Below are positions 44,920 to 61,011 of a stretch of 64,000 nt of DNA, piece after piece. The position numbers and the translations under genes are program-made. Source of the DNA: Nitrospiraceae bacterium (GTDB taxonomy: Bacteria > Nitrospirota > Nitrospiria > Nitrospirales > Nitrospiraceae); the NCBI GenBank assembly GCA_019637075.1, contig JAHBWI010000001.1, forward strand, positions 558,001-622,000. Reading direction: 5' to 3'. Within the stretch, counting starts at the first letter, position 1; each line of letters starts with the position of its first letter. The notes under the pieces are model-generated. The model searched no databases. It was not told where the DNA came from and saw nothing but the letters and a program-made list of their open reading frames with translations.

Positions 44920-44962
44920 TTGACTCCTCATTTCATCAGATTCACCTAAGGGAGTAGTGACC

Positions 44963-46627
44963 ATGAGATCTGCACAATCCACCTTCAAACATTTTCTCGC
45001 CGTCCTGGCCATCGCCATTGTGCAGATGCTTATGTTCGGCACTCCGTCATATGCGCAGGTAATCACCACGTCGCCTTCGGCGCTGTCGCTCACGGTGGCG
45101 CAGGGCGGAACCGTCAGCGGTACGCTCTCGCTCTCGAAGACCGGCACCGATGTGCACAGTTATTACATCAGCACCAATCAAGGATGGGTATGGTTGAATC
45201 CGGCTTACGGCAGCACCCAAACCATTTCCACCGAAACCGATCTCTTGACCGTGACCGTGAACACCTCGGCCATGGGACTCATTCCGGGAAGCTATAGCGC
45301 CGTCGTATATTTGGGTGAAACCGGCCCCGGCGTCTCGACGGTCGTTCGCGTGCCGGTTTCCCTCACGGTTACGGCCGCCGGCACGACACCGCCGCCCCCG
45401 CCGCCCTCAACGACGCCGCCACCGCCTCCGCCTTCAACGACGCCGCCACCGCCGCCGCCTTCGACGACACCGCCGCCCCCGCCGACAGCGACGCCCCCGC
45501 CGCCGCCGCCGACCAGTTCGTTGACGTCGTTCATCCAATCGTTCCCCGGCTCGCTGGCGCTTGCCGCTCCGCAGGGCACCAATCCGTCCGGCGTGGTGAA
45601 TCTGCAAAAATCCGGCACGACGACACATAGCTATTCGATCAGTACGAACCAGGGCTGGATTTGGCTGAACCCGCCCTATGGGAGTACGCAGACCATCACC
45701 TCGGAGATCGATCCGCTCACGGTGACCGTCAATACGGCTGGCCTCGCGGTGGGGTCTTATTCGGCCGTGGTCTATATTCTCGAGTCCGGGCCGGACATCC
45801 CGGCTACGACCTTGCGGATTCCGGTTACCGTTACGGTGACGGCCCCCGGCACGACACCGCCGCCCCCGCCGTCGACAACACCGCCTCCGCCTTCAACGAC
45901 GCCGCCGCCGCCTTCGACGACACCGCCGCCCCCGCCGACAGCGACACCCCCGCCGCCGCCGCCGACCAGTTCATTGACGTCGTTCGTCCAATCGTTCCCC
46001 GGCTCGCTGGCACTTTCGGCGCCAAAGGGTACGAACCCATCCGGCGTGGTGAATCTGCAAAAATCCGGCACGACGACACATAGCTATTCGATCAGTACGA
46101 ACCAAGGCTGGATTTGGCTGAACCCGCCCTATGGGAGTACGCAGACCATCACCTCGGAGATCGATCCGCTCACGGTGACCGTCAATACGGCAGCCCTGGC
46201 GGTCGGATCCTATTCCGCCGTGGTCTACATTCTCGAGTCCGGGCCGGATATCCCGGCCACGACCTTGCGGATTCCGGTTTCTGTGACCGTCACGGCCACC
46301 GGAACCACGGCACCGCCGCCCCCGCCGCCGCCCTCGCCGACCGGAGGCGCCACGCCGCCGCCCCCGCCGCCGCCTCCTTCGTCCACGACGACCACCGGGA
46401 CGATGACGGTGTCATGGAGCGCCAACACGGAAGCGGACCTGGCAGGCTACCGGATCTACGTGGGCACGCAAACCGGCGTGCACCCGCAGATGTTCGACGT
46501 GGGCAACGTGCTTTCGAAACAGCTCACGTTGCCGCTCGGCTTCACCTACTTCGTCGTGATCACGGCCTACGATAAGGTCGGGAACGAAAGTTCCCCGTCG
46601 GCGGAGTTGAGCCGGAGCGTGTTCTGA
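44963..46627 (+). CDS. secreted BACON-like repeat protein with Pro-rich linkers and FN3 domain
   Basis: This encodes 554 residues. ATG 44963 has GGGAG 8 nt upstream; a GTG at 44957 is less well placed. A signal peptide (to about AQ) is followed by three Ig-like repeats of about 90 residues (TNQGWIWLNPPYGSTQTIT, then GSYSAVVYI), joined by linkers of PPPPPS/TTPPPP. The last domain (MTVSWSANTEADLAGYRIYVG) is fibronectin type III. Repeats 2 and 3 are nearly identical in DNA. I infer an extracellular or surface protein that binds polymers or spans distance. Confidence 0.85.
   Translation: MRSAQSTFKHFLAVLAIAIVQMLMFGTPSYAQVITTSPSALSLTVAQGGTVSGTLSLSKTGTDVHSYYISTNQGWVWLNPAYGSTQTISTETDLLTVTVNTSAMGLIPGSYSAVVYLGETGPGVSTVVRVPVSLTVTAAGTTPPPPPPSTTPPPPPPSTTPPPPPPSTTPPPPPTATPPPPPPTSSLTSFIQSFPGSLALAAPQGTNPSGVVNLQKSGTTTHSYSISTNQGWIWLNPPYGSTQTITSEIDPLTVTVNTAGLAVGSYSAVVYILESGPDIPATTLRIPVTVTVTAPGTTPPPPPSTTPPPPSTTPPPPSTTPPPPPTATPPPPPPTSSLTSFVQSFPGSLALSAPKGTNPSGVVNLQKSGTTTHSYSISTNQGWIWLNPPYGSTQTITSEIDPLTVTVNTAALAVGSYSAVVYILESGPDIPATTLRIPVSVTVTATGTTAPPPPPPPSPTGGATPPPPPPPPSSTTTTGTMTVSWSANTEADLAGYRIYVGTQTGVHPQMFDVGNVLSKQLTLPLGFTYFVVITAYDKVGNESSPSAELSRSVF
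45502..46300 (+). repeat. near-identical internal DNA repeats within the repeat protein gene
   Basis: The second and third Ig-like units (about 45502-45860 and 45955-46310) share long identical stretches, for example from 45598 to about 45649 and the same text 453 bases on. The Pro-codon linkers (GCCGCC and CCGCCC runs) between them are also low-complexity. This makes the gene prone to recombination and copy-number change. Confidence 0.85.
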
Positions 46628-46746: not shown

Positions 46747-46823
46747 GGCGCCCGTAGCTCAATGGATAGAGCACCAGACTACGGATCTGGGGGTTACAGG
46801 TTCAAGTCCTGTCGGGCGCGCCA
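46747..46823 (+). tRNA. tRNA-Arg (ACG)
   Basis: The acceptor stem GCGCCCG (46747-46753) pairs with CGGGCGC (46813-46819), followed by discriminator G and encoded CCA (46821-46823). D-arm GCTC...GAGC, anticodon loop CTACGGA with anticodon ACG, and T-arm CAGG-TTCAAGT-CCTG are all in place. The ACG anticodon is expected to be edited to ICG and reads CGU/CGC/CGA. Confidence 0.97.
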
Positions 46824-49259: not shown

Positions 49260-49727
49260 TTATTCCCGAGCCTGAAGGAGCGGAATGATCTCCGCATGCC
49301 CGAGCGTGGTTGCGATACTAAGCGGGCTCGGCAGATACCAGTGATGGCTCGGCATCGAGGCGCCCCGCTCCAACAACAAAGCCACGATCGCACGATCTCC
49401 CTTTGAGGCGGCAGCATGAAGCGCCGTCCACCCGCTCACGTCGGCGGCATTGACGTCCGCGCCGGCATCCAACAGCGCCCGCACCAACTCGACATAGCCA
49501 TGCCCCGCGGCCACAATCAGCGGGCCTGTGCCGATGAGTGGAAACCGCCTATTCACGTCCTGTCCTTCCGTGATGAGGCGCTGCACCCTCTCAAGATCGC
49601 CCGAGGCCGACGCGTTCAGCATCGACAGCGAACAGCCGGCCTGCAGGCTGCTGACCACTGTGGCCATGAGGAGGAAAGTCACCGCCCTTTTGGTTCGCGA
49701 GACCTTGTGCTTTCGGGAGTCGTGCAT
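49260..49727 (-). CDS. ankyrin-repeat lipoprotein
   Basis: This encodes 155 residues if read from ATG 49727. A TTG at 49751, overlapping the upstream stop, is possible. The signal ends in a lipobox (SLQAGC). Ankyrin units follow: LNASASGDLERVQRLITEGQDVN, GTGPLIVAAGHGYVELVRALLDAGADVN, and GWTALHAAASKGDRAIVALLLERGA. It is a periplasmic or outer-membrane scaffold. It follows the Omp85-like gene and probably shares its transcript. Confidence 0.85.
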   Translation of the reverse strand: MHDSRKHKVSRTKRAVTFLLMATVVSSLQAGCSLSMLNASASGDLERVQRLITEGQDVNRRFPLIGTGPLIVAAGHGYVELVRALLDAGADVNAADVSGWTALHAAASKGDRAIVALLLERGASMPSHHWYLPSPLSIATTLGHAEIIPLLQARE

Positions 49728-49747
49728 GGCGGTTCCGACGATCACTG

Positions 49748-51082
49748 TCAAAACGGATAATCCAGCCCGACGAACACGTTCGCCCCATCCTTACCATACC
49801 CGATGTCCAGACGACCTACGACATTCGGCAGCGAAATCACGCGAAAGCCGATTCCCGGATTGATTTGCGGGTTCGATAGTTTATCGAAGCTGAAATGTCC
49901 CATCACCCGGCCGATATCGACGAAGGGCGCGACCTCCAGATCTAATTCATGTTCGAAGATTTCGCGGCGGCTGAACCGAAAGCGCTCCTCGAAATTCACG
50001 AGGAGAAGCGTATCGTCCACGAAACGGTTTTGCCCGAACGCTCGCAATGTGGTTTCGCCCCCGAGGGTGGGCTGTTCGTAAAACGGCGTCTTGTTGCCGT
50101 TGACGGCATCGGCGAGAAAACGCGCGACGAACACCATCCGGTCGTTGTAGTGAGGAATGAACTGTCTGGCCTCGAAAGTCGTGCGCAACCATCGGTTGGG
50201 CTCCCGGCGCTCCAGGTTCTGGTTGAGTTCAACGGAACCGATGATATAGGTCCCGCTCGTCGTCACCAGTTGTTTGTCCCTAGTGTCGTAGCGCAAAGCC
50301 AACTTATGGCCGAAGACCTGTGCGCCTTCCAGACCGGTCAAGTGGGGAAAAAGCATTTTGGTCTGCGGCAGGGATTTGACGGCGCCTTCCTCGACGCGGA
50401 CGTCGTGGAACCGTTCGCTCCAGAGCAGGGCCAGATCCTGATTGAAATTGATGCCGGCCGTCAGTTGAATGAGCGTCTCGCGCGACGTGTAGTTGGTTTC
50501 CGCGCTCTCCGACGCATGGTTGCCGATCCCGAAAAATCGGCGGAAGGCGTTCTTGAACCAGGTGGCCTGGGCCGCCAGAATGTAGCGCCCTCCACCCGCC
50601 GCCACATTCTTGTAGTTGAGATCGATATCCCGCTGAATCTTCGTGCTGTACGACGCGACGGCGCTGTATTGCTCCGTATCAGACGGGTATCCGAAATAGT
50701 TGACGGAGAACGTTTCCCCGATACTGGGATTGTGCAGGTATTGCGGCGCAACGATATCGGTCAGCTCGCCCTTGGCATTCGATTTGAGGATCGGCATCAA
50801 TGCGCCGACCCAGTATTGCTCATTGCGATTGTATGAGAAGGCAGGCAGCGGAATCGCCGTATAGCCTTCCTTTCCCGCAAGCGATTTGAGTGCTTCCTCT
50901 TTCGCTTCCGCTTGTTTCAATTCCGCGCGCTCGCTTTCCGTCTCTTGGACGGGAACATCGGTGCTCGGCGGAAGTTTTGGGTTGGGATCACCCGGGCGTT
51001 CGACGGTGATCAGCACTTGTCCGGTCGAGACCCCAGGCAGGAGGAACAGCGCGCACAGAGAAAGGGCCAGCCGGATCAGCAT
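49748..51082 (-). CDS. Omp85/BamA-TamA-type outer-membrane protein without POTRA
   Basis: This encodes 444 residues with a signal peptide (LIRLALSLCALFLLPGVSTG). A short coiled-coil linker (ESERAELKQAEAKEEALKSL) leads into a 16-strand-type barrel with the family signature GGETTLRAFGQNRFVDDTLLLVNFEERFRF. It ends in DYPF. No POTRA repeats fit into the roughly 75 residues before the barrel, so it is not a BamA. Likely a surface antigen-type transporter or lipid-related barrel. It overlaps the ankyrin gene at its 3' end region. Confidence 0.88.
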   Translation of the reverse strand: MLIRLALSLCALFLLPGVSTGQVLITVERPGDPNPKLPPSTDVPVQETESERAELKQAEAKEEALKSLAGKEGYTAIPLPAFSYNRNEQYWVGALMPILKSNAKGELTDIVAPQYLHNPSIGETFSVNYFGYPSDTEQYSAVASYSTKIQRDIDLNYKNVAAGGGRYILAAQATWFKNAFRRFFGIGNHASESAETNYTSRETLIQLTAGINFNQDLALLWSERFHDVRVEEGAVKSLPQTKMLFPHLTGLEGAQVFGHKLALRYDTRDKQLVTTSGTYIIGSVELNQNLERREPNRWLRTTFEARQFIPHYNDRMVFVARFLADAVNGNKTPFYEQPTLGGETTLRAFGQNRFVDDTLLLVNFEERFRFSRREIFEHELDLEVAPFVDIGRVMGHFSFDKLSNPQINPGIGFRVISLPNVVGRLDIGYGKDGANVFVGLDYPF

Positions 51083-51205
51083 AGGAAATTCGCGGTCATC
51101 ACCCCTTGCGGCACGTGCGGATCAATCGGCAGACCATGAAACCAGAGTCTTCAGGCCCTGTCAAAGCGACTTCATCCGGATCGGCGCGATGCCTCCTGCG
51201 CGCCC

Positions 51206-53416
51206 CTATTGTATGACTGCCGGCCCATCAGGCGACCAGATCCTATTGCGCTCCAGCGCCCTGTTCCAGGCCAGGTACCGAGCGCCCATCGCATGCAAAT
51301 AGGAGATTCCCGCGGGCCCCTTCTCGATGTCGTATCTTGTACTGGTTCGAAGATCCAGATCCGTCCGGCTCAAGAGTCCCCGCCGGAACGAATACTGCCA
51401 AATGCCCGTCTCGTCGGCTATGCCGATCGCGTCGTCGTACACGCTGCTCAAGTAGGCGCGATTCTCGATCCGGCAAGGACCGGCCAACACACAACTCAGA
51501 TCCTGCCCGACAAAGGGTTCGACGCGCGGCATCAGGCCGATTGCCGTCAGGACCGTCGGCGCGATATCCACCTGGCTCGCGACCTGCTTCACCGCCCCAG
51601 CCTGAAAACCTCGTTGTCGCCGCAACGATTCATCCAGCCAAACGAAGAGCGGCGCCATGTAATGGCCGACTTGCCGTTCGTGGTCCGACTCGCCCACCGC
51701 CTCGTGCCGTCCGTGATCGCCCAGGATCAGCACAATGGTGTTGTCGAGCAGTCCGTTCTTCCGCATCCGGCCGAAGACCCGTTCAAGTTCGGCATCGAAA
51801 TACCTGAGCGCAGCCACGTAGCCGTCCGGGTCTTTCGTGAGGGCTTGCACATCGGGATGACTCGCCGGAACGGCAAACGGATGGTGCGTGCTTGTGGTCA
51901 GCGCGGCCAGAAAAAACGGCGTGCCCTCCGTCCGCAGAGCGGTCACACGATGCTCGATAAAATCCAACAGGGCCCCGTCGGTCAGGCCCAACCCCAGACG
52001 TTCGGCCTGTTGCGGAAAGTCCTGCTCCGCGTAATACCGCTCGATCCCGTTACGTTCCAGGAATTCCCTCAACCCCGTGAGGTCGCTGTCCAGACTCACG
52101 ACCATTTCGGTATGGTAGCCCGCCTGCCGAAGCACCGACGGCATGCAGAGAAAGTCATGCGTGCGACGAGTCTTGATGACGGCGGTCCCCTGCCTGGGCC
52201 AAGCGGAACAGAGCGTGGCGAACAGACCGCGCAAGGTCTGTACGCCGTTACTGAAAAAATTCGGGAAGTACAGGCTCTCATCCTTCAATCGATCGAGGAA
52301 AGGCGTCAGGCGAATATCCGAGGCGGTCTGGTCCCCCGGTCTCGACGAGCCGGAGGGCGTATACCGCCGGCCGAGGTACCGCCGATCGAGCCCCTCGACA
52401 AACAGCAGGACGATATTGGGCGGCCGTGTGAAATACGGGGCTTCCGGATGGCGCTGGGTGCCGATGAACGGATAGTCAGGCCCGGCGAAGACCCGCTCCC
52501 CGTCACTCGCAAGGCGGACCCCGTCATCGGCCTGTATTTCGGTCATCCGAAACGGCAAGGCGGACGGACTCCAGCTGAGCTGCGATAAGAAGACGTCTCG
52601 AAACGGATGGTGCGCGAACAACACGGGATTTTGCGAAAGGCTGTAGTAGGCCTCGCTGTCGATCGCCTCCCACACCAGCGACGAGGCCGGTGGGGGCGTG
52701 AGCCCCGCAGCCGTCACGCCGACCGCGGCCACCAGCATCATCGTCAACCCGGCCGACGTTCCTTGCTGCAGCGCCTCACTGTGTCGGTGCAACGCAGCCC
52801 GAAACAACGCCGTCCAGGTGGCGGCAAACAAGACCAGGAGCCCCCAAAACAGTCCGATGCGGGACAGCCATTTGCTCGGATCCTCCAGCTCGGCTCCGGT
52901 CTGTTCCGCAGCCTGCGACGGGCCGTTTTGGCCGAACGCATGGATCAACTCGTCCAGATACTCGAAGAACACGAAATCCAAATGTTGGTGGTTGTAGGCA
53001 AAGTAGGACAGATCGGCCGTCGTGACGGCGAAGAGCCCGACCGCCGACAGCAGGGAAACGCCGGAGATTGCCCGACCGAAGAGCTCCGTGCGCGGCAGTG
53101 TGCCGCCCCATCCGCCCAGGACACACAACCCCGTCACCAATGCCGCCAGGAGCAGGACCAAACCGAGACCGATAGCCGCGACATAGAGATCGTTGCCCAG
53201 CCCCGCGAGAAACGTCCTCACGAGCAGGCCGGGGACGCCTGGTTGGCGAGCCATCACGTCCGGCGCCAGGCACACCCGCTCGGCCTGTTGGATCAACAGG
53301 AAGAGCACGCCCCAAAACAGGGACAGGCCCCACCACGGCACCGGCTGGCCGCCGGCAATGGTCATGATGCGCTGCTTCACTGTGGTGCTCGACCGCTCCG
53401 CGTCTAGCAAGCCCAC
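51206..53416 (-). CDS. LtaS-like alkaline-phosphatase-superfamily membrane transferase
   Basis: This encodes 736 residues from GTG 53416, though internal GTG 53380 and ATG 53365 are possible. About five N-terminal membrane helices (to about 210) precede a periplasmic sulfatase-fold domain: PNIVLLFVEGLDRRYLG (metal Glu), SNGVQTLRGLFATLCS with a candidate catalytic Thr, and ILGDHGRHEA (metal Asp/His). These enzymes transfer phosphoglycerol or phosphoethanolamine from phospholipids to glycans or lipids. It begins inside the end of the epimerase gene. Confidence 0.88.
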   Translation of the reverse strand: MGLLDAERSSTTVKQRIMTIAGGQPVPWWGLSLFWGVLFLLIQQAERVCLAPDVMARQPGVPGLLVRTFLAGLGNDLYVAAIGLGLVLLLAALVTGLCVLGGWGGTLPRTELFGRAISGVSLLSAVGLFAVTTADLSYFAYNHQHLDFVFFEYLDELIHAFGQNGPSQAAEQTGAELEDPSKWLSRIGLFWGLLVLFAATWTALFRAALHRHSEALQQGTSAGLTMMLVAAVGVTAAGLTPPPASSLVWEAIDSEAYYSLSQNPVLFAHHPFRDVFLSQLSWSPSALPFRMTEIQADDGVRLASDGERVFAGPDYPFIGTQRHPEAPYFTRPPNIVLLFVEGLDRRYLGRRYTPSGSSRPGDQTASDIRLTPFLDRLKDESLYFPNFFSNGVQTLRGLFATLCSAWPRQGTAVIKTRRTHDFLCMPSVLRQAGYHTEMVVSLDSDLTGLREFLERNGIERYYAEQDFPQQAERLGLGLTDGALLDFIEHRVTALRTEGTPFFLAALTTSTHHPFAVPASHPDVQALTKDPDGYVAALRYFDAELERVFGRMRKNGLLDNTIVLILGDHGRHEAVGESDHERQVGHYMAPLFVWLDESLRRQRGFQAGAVKQVASQVDIAPTVLTAIGLMPRVEPFVGQDLSCVLAGPCRIENRAYLSSVYDDAIGIADETGIWQYSFRRGLLSRTDLDLRTSTRYDIEKGPAGISYLHAMGARYLAWNRALERNRIWSPDGPAVIQ

Positions 53417-54321
53417 TTATGACGGAACCAGTCCACGGTCCGGCGCAACCCGTCTTCGAACGACACCGTGGGATACCATTCCAGCTCGCGCGCGGCCTTC
53501 TTCGCCGTCACTTCTTTTCCCCCGAAATCGCCGGGACGAGCGGGGACGAAATCGAGCTGGACTTGATCGCCGAGCACCTTCTTGATCCCCTCCGCCACCT
53601 CCAATACCGTCACCTTCCTGGTTCCCTCGAGGTTGTACGTCTGATTCGCCGCATCCTCCTTCATCGCCAACACGTGGGCATCCGCCATGTCCCGTACGAA
53701 CACGAAGTTCCGGTACTGTTCCCCCTTGCCGGAAATCGTGAGCGGCTGCCCGCTCAAGGCCTTCTTGATGAAGATCGGGATCAGGAGTTCTTCGCGCATG
53801 CGCGGTCCGTACGGAATACCGTACCGGAGGATGGTGAACGGCACCTGATAGAGCTGCCGATAGTTGTGGCAGAGCATCTCGGCCGCCATCTTGGACGAGG
53901 TATAAATGTGCCCGGCGGATTCGAGGTGGAACGGGACTGTTTCGTCGACCACCTTCCCGTTCGCCGCGCCATTGTAGACCCACACGGTGGAGGCCAGATG
54001 AACCCGCCTCGTGCCGTGGACCCGCGCGGCCTCGAGAATGTGGGTCGTCCCCATCACGTTCAAGGCCGTCGAATACACCGGATACTTGTAGGCGTAATTG
54101 ACGTTCGAGACCGCAGCCAAGTGAAAAATATGCTCGGCCCCCTTCGTTGCCGCCACGACCGAAGACAGGTCCATCAGGTCAATATCCTCGAACTTGACGT
54201 CCTGCCGGTGCGGGCGCACACGATGGTCGATCACGGTCACGTCGTGACCGGCGTCAACCAGCGCGTCGACGACGTGTGAGCCGATGAAACCGCTTCCCCC
54301 TGTAACGACGACTTGTGACAT
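53404..54321 (-). CDS. NAD-dependent sugar-nucleotide epimerase/dehydratase
   Basis: This encodes 305 residues. Rossmann loop VVVTGGSGFIGSH, catalytic YTSSK (YxxxK) in GHIYTSSKMAAEML, and an NFVFVRDMADAHVLAM motif before the C-terminal lobe place it with extended SDRs (GalE/UDP-glucuronate decarboxylase type). The exact sugar is unknown. It lies next to a DegT aminotransferase, so the pair could make an amino or 4-keto sugar for lipid modification. Confidence 0.92.
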   Translation of the reverse strand: MSQVVVTGGSGFIGSHVVDALVDAGHDVTVIDHRVRPHRQDVKFEDIDLMDLSSVVAATKGAEHIFHLAAVSNVNYAYKYPVYSTALNVMGTTHILEAARVHGTRRVHLASTVWVYNGAANGKVVDETVPFHLESAGHIYTSSKMAAEMLCHNYRQLYQVPFTILRYGIPYGPRMREELLIPIFIKKALSGQPLTISGKGEQYRNFVFVRDMADAHVLAMKEDAANQTYNLEGTRKVTVLEVAEGIKKVLGDQVQLDFVPARPGDFGGKEVTAKKAARELEWYPTVSFEDGLRRTVDWFRHKWAC

Positions 54322-54343
54322 GGCAAGCCGCTCCTTTCGTAAA

Positions 54344-55498
54344 TTAGCCGATGACGTCTTTCAGCGCGTGAATCACTTGATGGGCATCCGCATCCTCCAT
54401 GCCGGAAAACACCGGCAAGCACAGGTGGCGGGCGCAGTAGTCTCCGGACACAGGCAACACCCCGGAAGCGTATGAGGCAAAGACGGGTTGCTTGTGCAGC
54501 GGCTCCTCATAGACTTCGCCCGACAAGGAGACGCCGTACGTTTCCCGCAGCAGCGTCTTGAGGGCCTTGCGGTCCTGCTGCCTTTTGGGAAGCACCAAGT
54601 ACTTGTAGTAATTGCAGACCCCTCCGGGAGGGATCGAAACCAGATCTAGGTTTCGCAGCCCGGCCAATTCCTCGTCATACAGTGCCGCGATCCGTTGCCG
54701 GTCGGCGATCATCGCGGGAAGCCGTTCCAGGTGTTTCAATCCGATGATGGCGTGCGGTTCGGACAGGCGCCAGTTGGCTCCCATGCGCACATGTGCGTTT
54801 TGAGTGAAGCTGGCTTTCCCCTGATCCCGGTAAATCTTGGCTTCGGCCGCGATATGGGCATCGTTGGTCACGATCATGCCGCCTTCTCCGGAAGTCATGA
54901 CCTTCGTAGGGTAGAAACTGAAGGACGAGGCGATGCCGAAGCAGCCCGCGCGTGTCCCGTTCAACGCCGATCCGTGCGCATGCGCCGCATCCTCAACGAG
55001 CCACAGGCCCTTGCGTTTCGCCCATTCCTGCAATTCCGGCATCCGCCGCGACACAATACCGCCGATATGGACGACGATGAGCCCGTCGGTTTTCGGCGTG
55101 AGACGATGCTCGAGATCCTCAGGCCGCACCCCGAACGATTCCGGATCCATGTCGACCAGCACCGGCCGGCCTCCCGCATGCACGACCGCAGCAGCCGTGG
55201 CAAAGAAGGTGTTGGTGGGGACCAGCACGTCCTTCCCTGCTACTTGCAGCGCCCGCAAGATGATCTCCAACGCGCTGGTCCCGCTGTTGACGGCCACCGC
55301 ATGTTGCGTTCCGGAGAATCGGGCGAACTGTTGCTCAAACTCGGCCCCATATTTTCCCAGCGTCAATTGGCCGGTCCCGAGCACCTCCTCGATGCGCGCG
55401 GCGATCCAGGCCCTGTCTTCCGGCAAGAATTGGATCCTTGCGGCGGGAACCTTGCGGGCGGGAGGCAGAACCGTGCTCTCGGAAGTAACACCTTGCAT
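54344..55498 (-). CDS. DegT/DnrJ/EryC1/StrS aminotransferase
   Basis: This encodes 384 residues. PLP Lys is K199 in SFYPTKVMTSGEGG, and the cofactor Asp is D170 in LVEDAAHAHGS. Typical NSGTSALEIILRA and VLVPTNTFFAT motifs are present. The family aminates keto-sugar nucleotides, as ArnB does for aminoarabinose. It lies between an epimerase and an EamA transporter, as in lipid or glycan decoration clusters. Confidence 0.93.
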   Translation of the reverse strand: MQGVTSESTVLPPARKVPAARIQFLPEDRAWIAARIEEVLGTGQLTLGKYGAEFEQQFARFSGTQHAVAVNSGTSALEIILRALQVAGKDVLVPTNTFFATAAAVVHAGGRPVLVDMDPESFGVRPEDLEHRLTPKTDGLIVVHIGGIVSRRMPELQEWAKRKGLWLVEDAAHAHGSALNGTRAGCFGIASSFSFYPTKVMTSGEGGMIVTNDAHIAAEAKIYRDQGKASFTQNAHVRMGANWRLSEPHAIIGLKHLERLPAMIADRQRIAALYDEELAGLRNLDLVSIPPGGVCNYYKYLVLPKRQQDRKALKTLLRETYGVSLSGEVYEEPLHKQPVFASYASGVLPVSGDYCARHLCLPVFSGMEDADAHQVIHALKDVIG

Positions 55499-55540
55499 GA
55501 GTGACTCCTCTCGTCGGAAATGGAGTGAGTGATCGGGCTC

Positions 55541-55927
55541 TTAGGCGGTTTCCCCACCGCCCGCCGTGATCAAGATGACGCCCAGGATGACCAACAGAAT
55601 GCCGGCCCAGCGCAGGGTGGGCACGACTTCGTTCAGAAGTACGACGGCCAAGACTGCGGCCATACCGAATTCGAGCGCCGTCATGGGAAGCACCACGGTG
55701 ATGTCGGTCCACGAGAGCGCCGCGAGGAACAGAAAGTAGAAGACCGCGTTCAAGCCGGTGCCGATGACCACGTAAGGATTCGTCAATGCCCGCCCGAAGT
55801 ACGCGACCAGCGCCGCCGGCGCATACTGGTCCAGCGCGCCGACCTCCTGCATCCCCTGCCGCACAAAGATCTGCCCCACGGCCGCCGCAGCCGCCGCGAT
55901 CGTCATGACGATCAGCACTTTGAGCAT
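55541..55927 (-). CDS. EamA/SMR-type four-helix transporter
   Basis: This encodes 128 residues, almost entirely hydrophobic with four membrane helices. The repeat-like ALSWTDITVVLPMTALEFGMAAVLAVVLLNEVVP matches the EamA/ArnE-ArnF group, in which such subunits flip undecaprenyl-phosphate-linked amino sugars. Given the DegT and epimerase neighbours it may flip an amino sugar-lipid. That is inference. Confidence 0.85.
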   Translation of the reverse strand: MLKVLIVMTIAAAAAAVGQIFVRQGMQEVGALDQYAPAALVAYFGRALTNPYVVIGTGLNAVFYFLFLAALSWTDITVVLPMTALEFGMAAVLAVVLLNEVVPTLRWAGILLVILGVILITAGGGETA

Positions 55928-55943
55928 GCATTCCTCCGTACGT

Positions 55944-56798
55944 TCATCGGCAATCGCTGAAGGCCGCCGGCTTGATCCCGCACAGGGTCAGCGTGGCTTT
56001 CACCTTGGGGCTGATCAGCGCGTGCAATTCCTGTTCATGTTCATAGTCCGGCATGCTGTGGTCGATCTCGGGGCAGCGGCGGACCGCGGGGTGGCAATAG
56101 ATCTCGGTGACGCCCTGCGGCAGAGAACGGAGAAAGCGCTCGAGAAGGTGGGCCGTCACATGGCCGGAATCATGCAGCCCGAACACGAAATCGTTCGAGG
56201 CAACACCTGCGAGCCGGAGGCGCAGGCGCATCAACCGGATCCAGGGCCACAGACCTGCCCAAGACAGCACCCGGGACGGGGCGCGGTTTCCGGCCGCTCG
56301 GAGCGACGGCAACAACGGCTCATAGGGCACACGGACCGCGCGTAGGCCAAATTCCCGCCCGACTTCCAGAATCAATCCCAGCACCGTCGGATGCACATGC
56401 ATATGATTGTGGGCGTTGACGTGATCCAGTTCGAACCCCGTCCGGCGGAACGCCTCGAACTGGGCCCGGATTTCCCTCTTCAACTGCCGTCGCACGCCGG
56501 GTCGGAAGAAGAACTTGACCCCGGCACGGACCAAGCGAGTCGAAAACTCTCCCGCGCCGTCGACAAGGTCCGGCACCTCCGCCACGTTCGACACCGGCCG
56601 TCCTTCGACCAGCACGAGGTGCAACCCGACCCTCAGAGAAGGCAGCCGCCTGGCGCGCGCGATCGCATCCTGAACCGCCGCCGCCCCGACCATCAGACTG
56701 GCTGTCGTAAGAATCCCGTCCCGATGCGCCTGTTCGATCGCCTCATTGATCGGCAGGGCCAATCCGAAATCATCTCCGGTGACGATAAGCGCCTTCAC
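55944..56798 (-). CDS. hpnK: HpnK-type ChbG/YdjC-family deacetylase
   Basis: This encodes 284 residues. It starts MKALIVTGDDFGLALPINEAIEQAHR and has LDHVNAHNHMHVHP, giving the Asp and His ligands of the ChbG/YdjC fold. The HpnK subfamily deacetylates a GlcNAc-type group on a bacteriohopanetetrol glycoside. It overlaps the downstream-reading hpnI gene by 4 nt (ATGA), which supports a shared pathway. Confidence 0.85.
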   Translation of the reverse strand: MKALIVTGDDFGLALPINEAIEQAHRDGILTTASLMVGAAAVQDAIARARRLPSLRVGLHLVLVEGRPVSNVAEVPDLVDGAGEFSTRLVRAGVKFFFRPGVRRQLKREIRAQFEAFRRTGFELDHVNAHNHMHVHPTVLGLILEVGREFGLRAVRVPYEPLLPSLRAAGNRAPSRVLSWAGLWPWIRLMRLRLRLAGVASNDFVFGLHDSGHVTAHLLERFLRSLPQGVTEIYCHPAVRRCPEIDHSMPDYEHEQELHALISPKVKATLTLCGIKPAAFSDCR

Positions 56799-57973
56799 GC
56801 GCGATCTCCCGGGAGCACCAGCCGGCCGTCCCTCGTCAGCACGAATTCCGCATCACGCCAAATCGTCGTCCGCTTCGTGAACGCCAGCACCCACGACCCG
56901 AGAGCGGCGATATCGCGGAAGGGAACCAACCACAGCCATCGCATTCCCTCACGATCCTCCAACCCCCAACGCATGATGCAGCCGGCCAGTGCCAGCCGGA
57001 GCAGCACCGCGGCCAGGAGCACGGCAATTCCCACTGGAGCCCCAAACGTCAGGAGTGCGAACAGGCACGCGAAGGGCACGGGACGAATCACGACGGTGGA
57101 AAAGAGCGCGCCGGGTCTGGCGGCCCGGTTGTTTTGATCCCAGTAGACGAGGTGATTCCACCATTGCGCCGGAGTCTTGAGGTCCACCACCGTGTCGACT
57201 AGGTAGGGAAGAATGACCATCCGCTTCCCTCTCGTCCAAATCCGCCGCCCCATCTCATAGTCTTCGACCAGGTAATCCGCCAGGCTCGGAAGGCCGCCGA
57301 TCTCCGCCAGCGTCGATCGGCGTAGCGCGGTCGAGGCCCCGAGACAGAACTTGGCAGCGCCGGTGACCAGGGCGAAGGCCATGTTGGGCGTCAGGTCGGT
57401 GTTGATCGTCAGCAGTTCCATCGCCTCAAACCACGTGTCGGCTTCGCTGGCTTTGTAAAGCGTGCAGACATAACCGACAGCGGGATCGGCCAGAGGCGCG
57501 ACGACGGTCTTCAGATAATCGGGGCGAAGCCGGATATCGCTGTCGCTGATGACCAACAGGTCATGGCGCGCATGCTTCAGTCCCCCGATCAAATTGTTGA
57601 TCTTCCCGTTGGGGCCTGCGTTGAAGGCCTCGATCGCCACCGTGACGAGGTCCGCGCCGAATTCCTCCTGCAGGGCATGCAGCAGCGGGATCGCCGGATC
57701 GTCCGTCCGTTGGACCGAGAAGACGACTTGAAAATCGGGGTAATCCTGCCGGCAGGTACTCCGAAGATTTTCCGCGAGGTTTTTCTCAAGACCGCAGACC
57801 GGTTTGAGAACGGTGACCGGTGGCCATTCCGTGAAGGCGCGCGTCACCCGGTAGGAGCGGTTCCGACGGAATTGCAGCAAGGCGAGCAGACACAACAAGC
57901 CATAGATCGCCCCGAAGACAACCGGGATCAAGCAGATGATTTGGAGAATGGATAGAACCATGCCGATCGTCAC
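56795..57973 (-). CDS. hpnI: HpnI-type hopanoid glycosyltransferase
   Basis: This encodes 392 residues from GTG 57973; an ATG at 57961 is an alternative. An N-terminal membrane helix precedes a ceramide-glucosyltransferase-like GT2 domain: VLKPVCGLEKNLAENLRSTCRQDYPDFQVVFSV, VISDSDIRLRPDYLK (DxD-type), and LVEDYEMGRRI (ED acid). Further C-terminal helices follow. HpnI adds a hexosamine to bacteriohopanetetrol. It is the first gene of the leftward lipid-modification group. Confidence 0.85.
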   Translation of the reverse strand: MTIGMVLSILQIICLIPVVFGAIYGLLCLLALLQFRRNRSYRVTRAFTEWPPVTVLKPVCGLEKNLAENLRSTCRQDYPDFQVVFSVQRTDDPAIPLLHALQEEFGADLVTVAIEAFNAGPNGKINNLIGGLKHARHDLLVISDSDIRLRPDYLKTVVAPLADPAVGYVCTLYKASEADTWFEAMELLTINTDLTPNMAFALVTGAAKFCLGASTALRRSTLAEIGGLPSLADYLVEDYEMGRRIWTRGKRMVILPYLVDTVVDLKTPAQWWNHLVYWDQNNRAARPGALFSTVVIRPVPFACLFALLTFGAPVGIAVLLAAVLLRLALAGCIMRWGLEDREGMRWLWLVPFRDIAALGSWVLAFTKRTTIWRDAEFVLTRDGRLVLPGDRA

Positions 57974-58125
57974 ATCATTGCCACATAGCGACAGCCTTCA
58001 CACCACTGAGCGAGCAGGAACCGGGCCAGGCGCGTGACAAGCGGCGACAGGAACAAATGCCAGTAAATCGGAGGATCCAGAGATATGGAGGTCGGACGGC
58101 GTGGGGGAGTTGTAAAGTTTTTTGA

Positions 58126-58175: not shown

Positions 58176-59546
58176 TTACTGTGTGTCCGGCCGGTGTTTC
58201 AACTTGTACTGCAACAAGCTCCGGCTGATCTTTAGCAACTCTGCGGCTCGTGCCTGGATGCCGTTCGACTGAGTCAAGGCACGACTGATCATGTGGTCCT
58301 CGACGGTTTTCAGCGTTCGGTCGAGCGCCGCGTCGAGAGGAAGCAATCGGTCCAACGCACCGGCCCAGTCCTGACTGGGAGTGAGTTCGAGCGGCAAGTC
58401 TTCCGCTTGAATTTCATCCCCCTTCGCCATCAACGCCGCATGGGCAACGACGTTGTGCAGTTCCCGGACATTCCCGGGCCAACGGTGCCGCAGCAGCAGC
58501 CCCTGCGCGCGAGGCGAGAACCGCTGTCCCCGGACCGTCCCCTCTCTGGTCAAGGTCTGCAGGTGAGTCTCGGCAAGCAGGAGAATGTCGTCCTGGCGCT
58601 CCCGCAAAGAAGGCACGTCGATCCGGACGACACTCAACCGGAAATAGAGATCTTCTCGAAACCGGCCGTTCTGCACCTCCGCCTTCAGATCTCGGTTGGT
58701 GGCCGAGAGAATTCTGACATCGACCCGGATGGCTTTCTCCGTCCCAACCCGCCGGATCTCCTGACTATCCAACGCGCGGAGTAACTTTGCCTGAAGCGGC
58801 AGCGGGAGTTCGCCGATCTCGTCCAACAGGAGCGTTCCCCCGTTGGCCTGTTCAAATAGCCCCAAATGCCTGGCGTAGGCGCCGGTGAAGGCGCCCTTCT
58901 CATGACCGAACAGCTCACTCTCCGCCAACGAATCGGCCAAGGCGCCGCAATTGATGGCCAAGAACGGTCGCCCGCTCCGCGGCCCGCCGAAATGGACCGC
59001 GCGGGCCACCAATTCCTTCCCCACCCCGCTCTCGCCGGCTATGAGAACCGCGCTTTTCGACTGGGCCACGCGATGGATTTTTTCCACCACGGCCTGCATG
59101 GCCGGACTGCGCCCTACCAGATTGTCGAGACGATGGCGATGTTCCAGTGACCGAGAAAGGCGTACGTTTTCCCTGGCGAGCACGCTGCGCTCCGCGGCCC
59201 GTCTGATCGAACGAAGGAGTTCGTTGTTTTCGAACGGTTTCACGATGAAGTCATACGCGCCCCGGCGCATGGCCTCCACCGCCCGCTCGATCGTGCCATA
59301 GGCCGTCATCAGCACGGTGGAAGTCGTCGGGCACAGTTCCCGTGCCTTGTCCAACACCGTCATTCCATCCATTTCAGCCATGCGGAGATCCGTGAGCAAG
59401 ACATCTATGGTAGACTCCCGCAGCACCGTCAACGCATCGGTTCCCTTCTCGCACGTCACGACTTCATAGCCCTCGCCGCGGAGCAACTCGTCCAGCATCC
59501 AGAGATAGTTCTTCTCGTCATCGACAACCAGGATGGTTCCGGTCAC
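58176..59546 (-). CDS. NtrC-family sigma54-dependent response regulator
   Basis: This encodes 456 residues. Receiver domain with D53 in DVLLTDLRMAEMDG and KP at 103-104. The AAA+ domain has Walker A GESGVGKE (171-178), the sigma54-contact loop GAFTGA (218-223), and Walker B LLLDEIGE (239-246). The C-terminal Fis-type helix-turn-helix ends near the tail (ARAAELLKISRSLLQYKLK). It activates sigma54 promoters when phosphorylated by the adjacent kinase, whose stop it overlaps by 4 nt. The targets are unknown. Confidence 0.96.
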   Translation of the reverse strand: MTGTILVVDDEKNYLWMLDELLRGEGYEVVTCEKGTDALTVLRESTIDVLLTDLRMAEMDGMTVLDKARELCPTTSTVLMTAYGTIERAVEAMRRGAYDFIVKPFENNELLRSIRRAAERSVLARENVRLSRSLEHRHRLDNLVGRSPAMQAVVEKIHRVAQSKSAVLIAGESGVGKELVARAVHFGGPRSGRPFLAINCGALADSLAESELFGHEKGAFTGAYARHLGLFEQANGGTLLLDEIGELPLPLQAKLLRALDSQEIRRVGTEKAIRVDVRILSATNRDLKAEVQNGRFREDLYFRLSVVRIDVPSLRERQDDILLLAETHLQTLTREGTVRGQRFSPRAQGLLLRHRWPGNVRELHNVVAHAALMAKGDEIQAEDLPLELTPSQDWAGALDRLLPLDAALDRTLKTVEDHMISRALTQSNGIQARAAELLKISRSLLQYKLKHRPDTQ

Positions 59547-60916
59547 AAGGCCTCCGCTGAAGCCAAACGGACAGGGTGACCCGTTAGAGTCATCGCACGG
59601 TTCGATTCGGTAACCGGCAGCACGATGGTCACCGACGTGCCCTGATCCGGCATGCTGGCCACCTGCACCGCCCCCCCATGCCCGAGGACGACACGACGCG
59701 CCAACGCAAATCCAAGCCCGATACCCCCGCCGCGCTTTGTAAAAAACGGTTCTCCGAGCCGCTGCAGGTCTTCCGGCGCCAGGCCGACGCCCTGGTCTGT
59801 CACCGTCAACGACACCCTGGTCCCGTCCTCCGACAGGACCTGCGTGATTGTGACGACCCCTCCGGACGGCATGGCCTGAAATGCATTGCGGACGAGATTC
59901 GCCAGCGCCTGATGAAGAAGATCATAGTCGCCGCACACCATGACGGCAGTACCGCCGGCCAGCATTCTGAGCGTGGCGCCGGAAGGCACGGACCAGGCCC
60001 TGGTCGCCAGGACAATGCCGTCGAGCAACTCGGAGAGGCTGACCGGCTCCTGCCGTAAACCCAACGGAGCAGCGAGGCGAAGGACGCCCTCCACCGCCTT
60101 GTTGAGCCGTGTCGTCTCCTCCAGCACGACGGCGATATGACGCTGCGTCGACTGGTCCTTGACCCGTGCGGCCAGCATATCGACCGCCCCCCTGATGATG
60201 CCCAACGGATTTCTGACCTCGTGAGCGATTTGCCCTGCCATTTCCCCGAGCGCGGCCATCTGACTCACATGCTGAAGCCGTTCCTCCATCTTGGAAACTT
60301 GATCCAGCCGTTCCGTCAGCTCCAACTGCGCGTGCTTCAACTCGTCGTTCCGTTGCGTCAACGTCTCAGCCAGCTTCCGATAGCTCTCGCCCTGCGCCCG
60401 CTCTCCCTTCGCAAAGATAAACACCAGCAATCCCGTCATGGTGAAATACACGATCGCCGCCACGGCGTCCTGAAATTCCTTCACGCGAGTGATCGACGCC
60501 GACAACTGTTCGCCGGTGACGATAAACCCGATCATGGCCACGATCGACCCACACACCACCCACACCACATCTCGTCCCGCCAACTTCGTCGCGGCGGATA
60601 CGATGGGCAGCAGATAGACCAGCTCGTAGATGCTGCCGCTGCCGTCCGTCGCCGCCACCAAGATTCCCGCCAACACCATTTGAACCAGAATACTGATGCG
60701 CAGGAGGAACGTGCGTCTGGCGAGGTCCAAACTGGATTCGGCGAAGACCGGCGCGAAGAGTTCGATCGCCTGCAAGACCATGATGGCTGAGAAGGACAGA
60801 TAGGCCGCGATCGACGTGGGATGGCTGGCGCTCCCTAACGAAAAGAGGAGCGCGGCAAGTAAGGCAAGCGTCGATGCCTTCAGGACTTCGAACGGGGTCA
60901 AGCGAGGAAACGTCAT
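59543..60916 (-). CDS. membrane sensor histidine kinase (NtrB/ZraS type)
   Basis: This encodes 457 residues from ATG 60916; a GTG at 60955 would add 13 residues. About six membrane helices span residues 10-165, followed by a coiled-coil (ESYRKLAETLTQRNDELKHAQLELTERL), the H-box GQIAHEVRNPLGIIRG, N-box ALANLVRNAFQAM, and G1/G2 DQGVGLAPED and GGIGLGFALARR. It pairs with the NtrC-type regulator by the ATGA overlap. The signal is unknown. Confidence 0.93.
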   Translation of the reverse strand: MTFPRLTPFEVLKASTLALLAALLFSLGSASHPTSIAAYLSFSAIMVLQAIELFAPVFAESSLDLARRTFLLRISILVQMVLAGILVAATDGSGSIYELVYLLPIVSAATKLAGRDVVWVVCGSIVAMIGFIVTGEQLSASITRVKEFQDAVAAIVYFTMTGLLVFIFAKGERAQGESYRKLAETLTQRNDELKHAQLELTERLDQVSKMEERLQHVSQMAALGEMAGQIAHEVRNPLGIIRGAVDMLAARVKDQSTQRHIAVVLEETTRLNKAVEGVLRLAAPLGLRQEPVSLSELLDGIVLATRAWSVPSGATLRMLAGGTAVMVCGDYDLLHQALANLVRNAFQAMPSGGVVTITQVLSEDGTRVSLTVTDQGVGLAPEDLQRLGEPFFTKRGGGIGLGFALARRVVLGHGGAVQVASMPDQGTSVTIVLPVTESNRAMTLTGHPVRLASAEAL

Positions 60917-61011
60917 AGAAGAGCTCTGGGTGAACCGGAGCATCCACGGACACACGCTAGAGGCCCTGGAGAACAGGCTGTCACAGCGGAGCCTTGCGAG
61001 GCTCCGGACAC

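Follow-up and report, generated by a model that had tools for sequence, protein, structure and literature searches.

The window analysed here, 64,000 nt in length (G000:C1:558001-622000; genomes, contigs and loci carry G, C and L numbers below), comes from a Nitrospiraceae genome of 4.06 Mb in 22 contigs, scored as 100% complete and 4.94% contaminated. Seven genes lie on its minus strand from position 57973 to 49748, in the order hpnI, hpnK, eamA, degT, sdr (short-chain dehydrogenase/reductase, SDR), ltaS-like and omp85, with distances of -4, 16, 42, 22, -13 and 123 nt between them. The original prediction, made from the letters of the window, had named these seven genes as a one-strand run with short gaps or overlaps, and each was found where it had been placed. 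The same gene order is present in other genomes, thus the run is not a chance neighbourhood, and the genes are probably a co-transcribed, conserved block with a link to hopanoids, which are sterol-like membrane lipids. Gene identities, hopanoid context, conservation and the lack of hpnJ and hpnN over cut-off are sequence results. The features are listed in Table 1.

Table 1. Positions of the operon genes and adjacent features in the window, with the match or observation behind each
Feature	Position	Strand	Basis
hpnI, bacteriohopanetetrol (BHT) GlcNAc transferase homologue, DegT-linked clade	56795..57973	-	TIGR03472 338.2 bits (cut-off 310) and tree
hpnK, YdjC-type N-deacetylase	55944..56798	-	TIGR03473 390.7 bits (cut-off 232.6)
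eamA, small EamA/SMR (ArnE-like) membrane protein, candidate flippase	55541..55927	-	EamA 30.6 bits (cut-off 28.2)
degT, DegT/DnrJ/EryC1/StrS sugar aminotransferase	54344..55498	-	Pfam DegT 339 bits (cut-off 19.8)
sdr, extended SDR with ASTVWVY and YxxxK	53404..54321	-	Epimerase 182 bits (cut-off 20.9)
ltaS-like, LtaS/OpgB-type membrane phospho-transferase homologue	51206..53416	-	Sulfatase (LtaS fold) 124 bits (cut-off 25)
omp85, Omp85-superfamily barrel, no POTRA domain seen	49748..51082	-	Pfam Omp85 49.4 bits (cut-off 24)
Ankyrin-repeat protein, 163 aa, overlaps omp85 end by 4 nt	49260..49751	-	Pfam match and locus comparison
sigma54-like site TGGCCCGGTTCCTGCT	58013..58028	-	Ends 39 nt upstream of hpnI start; score 21/23
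ntrC, NtrC/AtoC-type sigma54 response regulator	58176..59546	-	AtoC model 472 bits (cut-off 714)
Sensor histidine kinase, AtoS/ZraS-like C-terminal half	59543..60955	-	AtoS model 190 bits (cut-off 646); adjoins ntrC in several relatives

The genome was searched for further hopanoid genes. The shc gene is on a contig other than that of the operon (C3:531604, 763 bits, cut-off 431), and HpnH is encoded on the same contig as shc (C3:567988, 544 bits, cut-off 225). Thus the possibility, raised together with the original prediction, that the genome holds no hopanoid genes is set aside. Of the genes whose presence elsewhere had been in question, hpnG is represented by an HpnG-like gene directly 3′ of shc, below its cut-off (103 bits, cut-off 187). 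It is followed by MlaE, MlaF and MlaD homologues and then by a second Omp85 barrel, which shares 37% identity with that of the window. This run (L041 11359-18518) may represent a hopanoid transport set; no HpnN over cut-off was detected in the genome (best 28 bits vs 752). The absence of hpnJ, which had been noted for the window, extends to the whole genome. The closest match, on the shc contig and 22 kb off, reaches 151 bits vs a cut-off of 577.6 that is passed by 49 of the 395 genomes of the phylum, and hpnJ elsewhere in the genome was ruled out. The hpnL gene is not among the operon genes (no genome-wide hpnL search was made).

The pathway to the BHT cyclitol ether proceeds through hpnI, hpnK and hpnJ (Schmerk et al. 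2015, as cited in the portion of PMC12583986 consulted). HpnI and HpnK without HpnJ predict BHT glucosamine, a known compound, as the minimum product, and a core of this type is very probably what the operon provides for. According to the same portion of PMC12583986, the alphaproteobacterium Rhodoligotrophos appendicifer, which of the three genes lacks only hpnJ, contains 100% BHT glucosamine, and this compound is still a dominant one in many strains that have all three genes. The window resembles R. appendicifer in having hpnI and hpnK without hpnJ, but the consulted text mentions no DegT/SDR/LtaS set for that organism. The window likewise resembles the cyclitol ether pathway, in that HpnI and HpnK exceed curated cut-offs and the genome has shc and hpnH. 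It differs from it in the lack of hpnJ and hpnN over cut-off, in the hpnI clade, in the separation of the operon from the shc contig, and in the added EamA, DegT, SDR, LtaS-like and Omp85 genes. Excerpts of other papers report shc and hpnH for marine Nitrospirales (PMC10579370), and predict that Leptospirillum has hpnIJ and that Nitrospira marina does not (PMC7231039). The latter pattern agrees with the patchy spread of hpnI observed here: in the window's family, by hand counts, 11 genomes have a match at E ≤ 1e-60 vs 108 in the shc list.

An alignment of five DegT proteins was used to scan the 395 phylum genomes (E ≤ 1e-130). The window-type DegT is present in 12, and in all 12 hpnI lies no more than 6 kb away. 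Each of the 12 also has HpnI over cut-off and shc, vs 29 and 187 of the 395 genomes phylum-wide (DegT-hpnI association, Fisher p 2e-15, relatedness ignored). The layout with this DegT is termed type A. Eight of the 12 type A genomes show no hpnJ over cut-off (G000, G025, G028, G194, G227, G245, G268, G321), and among these G227 and G268 are single-contig genomes. The order hpnI-hpnK-eamA-degT-sdr is kept in all eight loci; downstream, omp85 is found in eight, ltaS in seven (not L044) and the ankyrin gene in six, the window's own locus counted. At L050 (16756-17800, on the same contig as L085) omp85 extends over two frames; either the gene is broken or the sequence has an error there. The other four type A genomes (G015, G031, G221, G367) have hpnJ over cut-off, always adjoining a second SDR gene, and three of them have an eamA pair; no hpnK, ltaS or omp85 was seen in the G221 and G367 stretches. 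The second SDR is GalE/TviC-like and is found beside hpnJ in L048 (11714-14118), L047, L074, L077, L081, L119, L098 and L099; it may be involved in forming the cyclitol.

A separate layout, type B, occurs in five genomes (G011, G018, G019, G243, G313). It consists of hpnJ, a membrane protein gene, hpnI, eamA, a DegT gene whose product is about 40% identical, and a flavin adenine dinucleotide (FAD) oxidoreductase gene, with no hpnK seen in the stretches. L043 (6804-13822) is an example, and L045, L046, L135 and L136 are the others. The membrane protein has no Pfam match at 1e-5, and in some type A loci its relatives adjoin hpnI or precede omp85, at L044 (10927-11718), L047 (10721-11560) and L082 (14082-14666). 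A rule whereby genomes without hpnJ have one eamA and those with hpnJ have two fits all eight hpnJ-less and three of the four hpnJ-bearing type A genomes. It is not general and is broken by the five type B loci, which have hpnJ with a single eamA.

A DegT scan of genome contigs across phyla gave 43 loci, some of which are records of Nitrospirota genomes already counted. Where the DegT has at least 64% identity, hpnI or hpnK is in the stretch at 24 of 27 loci, and in the remaining three (L092, L095, L096) the stretch starts at a contig end that is no more than 534 bases from degT. These close loci are from metagenome-assembled genomes (MAGs) of Nitrospirota, Acidobacteriota, Myxococcota and Pseudomonadota. 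Among the more distant DegT loci, hpnI is found in 4 of 16 and is absent from the stretch in 12. Twenty of the 43 genomes were searched for shc and HpnJ. Ten loci are Acidobacteriota-like (nine Acidobacteriota and one labelled Rhizobium); shc is present in nine of their genomes, and HpnJ passes its cut-off in none. The four genomes behind L098-L101 all have both. At L093, degT-sdr is followed, after one intervening gene and without a change of strand, by an HpnN of 1012 bits (cut-off 752; in a second HpnN model 991 bits vs 1100). This HpnN is a tie to a known hopanoid gene.

Loci were read from all 29 Nitrospirota genomes with HpnI over cut-off and from four just below it; 75 further below-cut-off genomes (E ≤ 1e-60) lie outside this count. 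A tree of 51 HpnI stretches separates 15 classical sequences (11 from Nitrospirota and four plasmid-borne proteobacterial ones) from 36 of the window type by a branch with 100/100 support, the root being set on the classical side by choice. Identity to the window's HpnI over the match is 46-76% inside the clade and 30-36% for classical HpnI. Eighteen of the 29 genomes have the window-type HpnI, 17 of them with DegT nearby, and the classical form is in the other 11 and in the four below cut-off. It should be noted that the window-type HpnI was sampled through HpnI within Nitrospirota and through its DegT elsewhere, so that many of the 36 clade members were found by DegT and the DegT-linked share is biased outside Nitrospirota. 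The tree requires at least four changes between hpnJ presence and absence. L125 and L161 form long branches. Two MAGs with doubtful labels, Klebsiella pneumoniae (L111) and Rhizobium (L093), have hpnI and a DegT relative, and the L111 HpnI groups with gammaproteobacterial MAGs.

The Arn set, which modifies lipid A with 4-amino-4-deoxy-L-arabinose (L-Ara4N), comprises a lipid glycosyltransferase, a sugar deacylase, a small EamA/SMR flippase, a DegT aminotransferase and an SDR. The logic of the window operon is similar, with a hopanoid as the lipid. Differences from Arn are that the window EamA falls under the ArnE cut-off, that the window SDR lacks the acidic residue of aligned UDP-glucuronate decarboxylases, that no ArnT-type transferase is among the operon genes, and that the lipid is probably a hopanoid. 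The Arn parallel, together with the low identity to classical HpnI across the 100/100 branch, could mean that the window-type HpnI glycosylates a lipid other than BHT (ceramide, diacylglycerol or undecaprenyl phosphate), followed by Arn-like deacetylation and flipping. This is improbable. The window HpnI exceeds its own cut-off, HpnK is 51% identical to the matches at the Methylobacterium and Mycetohabitans hpn loci, the same locus bears hpnJ over cut-off in the four type A genomes named above, and shc is present in all 18 Nitrospirota genomes with the window-type HpnI.

The EamA protein (128 aa) is a half-size protein of the SMR/ArnE type and has 23 bits in the ArnE model, under the cut-off of 92. 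Its AlphaFold2 model has a mean predicted local distance difference test score (pLDDT) of 88, and the six best Gdx-Clo and EmrE chains align at TM 0.64-0.74 by target length, with E above 0.1. When a profile of 20 copies was run against the window's own genome (4.06 Mb), the window copy was the only match. In a tblastn search with three EamA queries, 12 of 17 further hpn stretches, three of which have the window's HpnI type, proved to contain a small EamA, vs none of 20 controls chosen arbitrarily from 18 phylum genomes and totalling 353 kb (p 3e-6). Counted per genome, it is present in 12 of 15 classical Nitrospirota and in 17 of the 18 genomes with the window's HpnI type, the exception being G367. 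For a Leptospirillum hopanoid cluster, PMC12654047 names an EamA-like transporter together with domains for outer membrane protein assembly, and the portions of the hopanoid literature consulted name no inner-membrane flippase for polar hopanoids. EamA is a candidate glycohopanoid flippase, a role we give somewhat better than an even chance, perhaps in the place held by HpnL in Proteobacteria.

The best Protein Data Bank (PDB) match of DegT is perosamine synthetase, and ArnB (1mdo) gives 160 bits with the DegT profile. The SDR has STVWVY in place of TDE, the 4,6-dehydratase motif with its acidic residues after the catalytic S/T. Because the acidic residue is replaced, the idea that the SDR supplies DegT by acting as a 4,6-dehydratase or a UDP-xylose synthase was rejected. 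Across 42 stretches, archaeal ones among them, STVWVY or STTWVY is retained by the matched SDR in 36; in this count several stretches are the same contig twice, and the match in L081 and L119 is the second SDR. Of seven distant DegT-SDR pairs, four have a group-1 glycosyl transferase near them (L102, L108, L115, L116), and near the others are a PMT_2 protein and a polyprenyl synthetase (L104), an LPG_synthase_TM protein (L110) and NeuB (L107). DegT-SDR pairs are also found in genomes without shc, thus the pair probably makes a sugar nucleotide. It would be an old sugar-nucleotide pair that became joined to hpnI-hpnK. That its product is placed on the hopanoid is possible, at slightly less than even odds. 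A fuller version, in which a GalE-like SDR and DegT turn a nucleoside diphosphate (NDP)-N-acetyl sugar into a 2-acetamido-4-amino sugar, the window-type HpnI puts this sugar on BHT, HpnK deacetylates it, the SMR protein flips the dicationic hopanoid as in Arn, and the POTRA-less Omp85 receives it at the outer membrane, would constitute a second, DegT-coupled branch of hopanoid glycosylation. We regard this version as quite unlikely.

The LtaS-like protein has 82 bits in the LtaS equivalog model (cut-off 970). E341, T394, D567 and H568, presumably its catalytic residues, are invariant in eight copies; the T and the D-H align with LtaS 2w5q, and the E falls outside that alignment. Its PDB relatives are the uncharacterized VP1736, lipoteichoic acid synthases and a primase, and sulfatases. 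The Omp85 protein has 144 bits in NF047779 (cut-off 200). Its structure model is of low confidence (mean pLDDT 63) and is relied on for one point alone, that no POTRA domain is seen; its fold matches are barrels of the SAM complex, TamA and BamA. Relatives of this barrel lie near shc or hpnJ in 4 of 17 stretches vs none of the 20 controls, namely L123 (3744-5006), L132 (13953-15284), L134 and L137 (2754-4091), and also in L172 and L173; those in L123, L132, L137, L172 and L173 are in classical clusters. It is doubtful that LtaS acts on the hopanoid, and an action of the Omp85 protein on it is equally doubtful.

The genes for the histidine kinase and the NtrC/AtoC-type regulator end 202 nt upstream of hpnI, and regulator copies 69-73% identical are found upstream of hpnI in L044, L047, L048, L049, L071, L072 and L075. 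The gap between ntrC and hpnI contains the site TGGCCCGGTTCCTGCT and, just after ntrC, an inverted repeat seen by eye. The score of the site against the sigma54 consensus was equalled or beaten in 2 of 500 shuffles. The scan was extended to 13 type A loci, 12 of which have a histidine kinase or ntrC match in the stretch (partial in L073, about 5 kb off in L076, none in L050). Scores of 19-22 of 23 were obtained in seven (window, L072, L073, L075, L076, L081, L118), with 0-39 of 500 shuffles as high. Eight loci without ntrC score 14-17, save L045 with 19. Scans for sigma70-type promoters and terminators gave no excess over chance (1 vs 3.0 and 10 vs 10.4). Elsewhere in the window, an open reading frame with repeated domains and long proline-rich linkers (44957-46627) has a tRNA-Arg shortly after it (46748-46823).

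Taken together, the operon would be under sigma54/NtrC control and probably makes an amino-sugar hopanoid core with its own export. HpnI would attach N-acetylglucosamine, or a close relative, to BHT, and HpnK would take the acetyl group off. Without HpnJ the end point would be a lipid of the BHT-glucosamine type and not the cyclitol ether. EamA, as an SMR/ArnE-like half transporter, would flip this glycolipid to the periplasmic leaflet. The SDR and DegT may make an extra NDP-amino sugar for the same lipid, which HpnI of this clade would use as its donor or which would enter at a later step. In the periplasm a group of the phosphoglycerol type may be added by the LtaS-like enzyme, and insertion of the lipid into the outer membrane may be assisted by the Omp85 barrel. 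We infer the flippase role of EamA from its association with hpn genes and, more weakly, the targets of SDR, DegT, LtaS and Omp85.

Several observations weigh against this proposal. The sigma54-like score is only 12-17 in 6 of the 13 type A loci (L044, L047, L048, L049, L050, L071), and the 123-nt gap upstream of omp85 puts its co-transcription with the preceding genes in question. No LtaS was detected at L044, L047, L074 and L077 or at any Acidobacteriota-like locus, and no hpnK was seen in L074 or L077. G250 has a window-type HpnI and an eamA pair with no DegT. EamA matches curated models weakly, and its fold matches are weak as well (E above 0.1). It was not found in the classical Nitrospirota genomes G083, G190 and G198, in L077 even at E 1e-3, or in the four proteobacterial hpn loci, in the annotated one of which HpnL follows hpnK; it is in only 6 of the 10 Acidobacteriota-like loci with hpnI or hpnK. 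Three of these ten have an SDR of at least 71% identity and a fourth has one at 42%; no SDR was found in five, and the L088 stretch ends at degT. In addition, of six searched genomes in which the DegT is distant and the stretch contains neither hpnI nor hpnK (L102, L104, L107, L108, L110, L116), five lack shc, and the DegT-SDR pairs in genomes without shc are about 51-60% identical.

These last points, the Acidobacteriota loci in which DegT lacks an adjacent SDR, the glycosyl transferases near four of the seven sampled DegT-SDR pairs and the lipoteichoic acid synthases among the LtaS relatives would also suit two pathways under one envelope regulator. In such an arrangement hpnI-hpnK-eamA would make and flip BHT glucosamine, and SDR-DegT-LtaS-Omp85 would modify lipopolysaccharide or another surface glycan. 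This we consider unlikely, since DegT stands beside hpnI or hpnK in MAGs of four phyla, also where LtaS and Omp85 are missing, a different DegT with the FAD oxidoreductase adjoins hpnI-eamA in all five type B loci, and hpnN lies downstream of degT-sdr in L093. A single operon for an amino-sugar hopanoid core and its export is preferred.

The original prediction of a new decorated hopanoid and its export is borne out in part. The block is conserved and hopanoid-linked, with DegT tied to hpnI in all 12 genomes, but the missing hpnJ alone predicts the known BHT glucosamine. The locus is thus a known core, hpnI and hpnK without hpnJ, in an unusual, conserved operon; that DegT, SDR and LtaS decorate the hopanoid is what we hypothesize beyond it. 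The operon is not described in the portions consulted of the literature on hopanoid genes, transport and Nitrospira hopanoids (PMC12583986, PMC12654047, PMC7231039, PMC5462960, PMC10579370, PMC5516240). New here are the DegT-hpnI conservation, the position of the window's HpnI across the branch from classical HpnI as placed by the tree, the EamA association, and the sigma54-like site and NtrC-type regulator before hpnI. The strongest new lead is EamA: most Nitrospirota loci that were read have a small EamA/SMR gene accompanying hpnI, hpnK or hpnJ, which makes it a single-gene flippase candidate. The locus would also predict which Nitrospirota and Acidobacteriota hold amino-sugar hopanoids without the cyclitol ether, which matters because hopanoid lipids serve as biomarkers.

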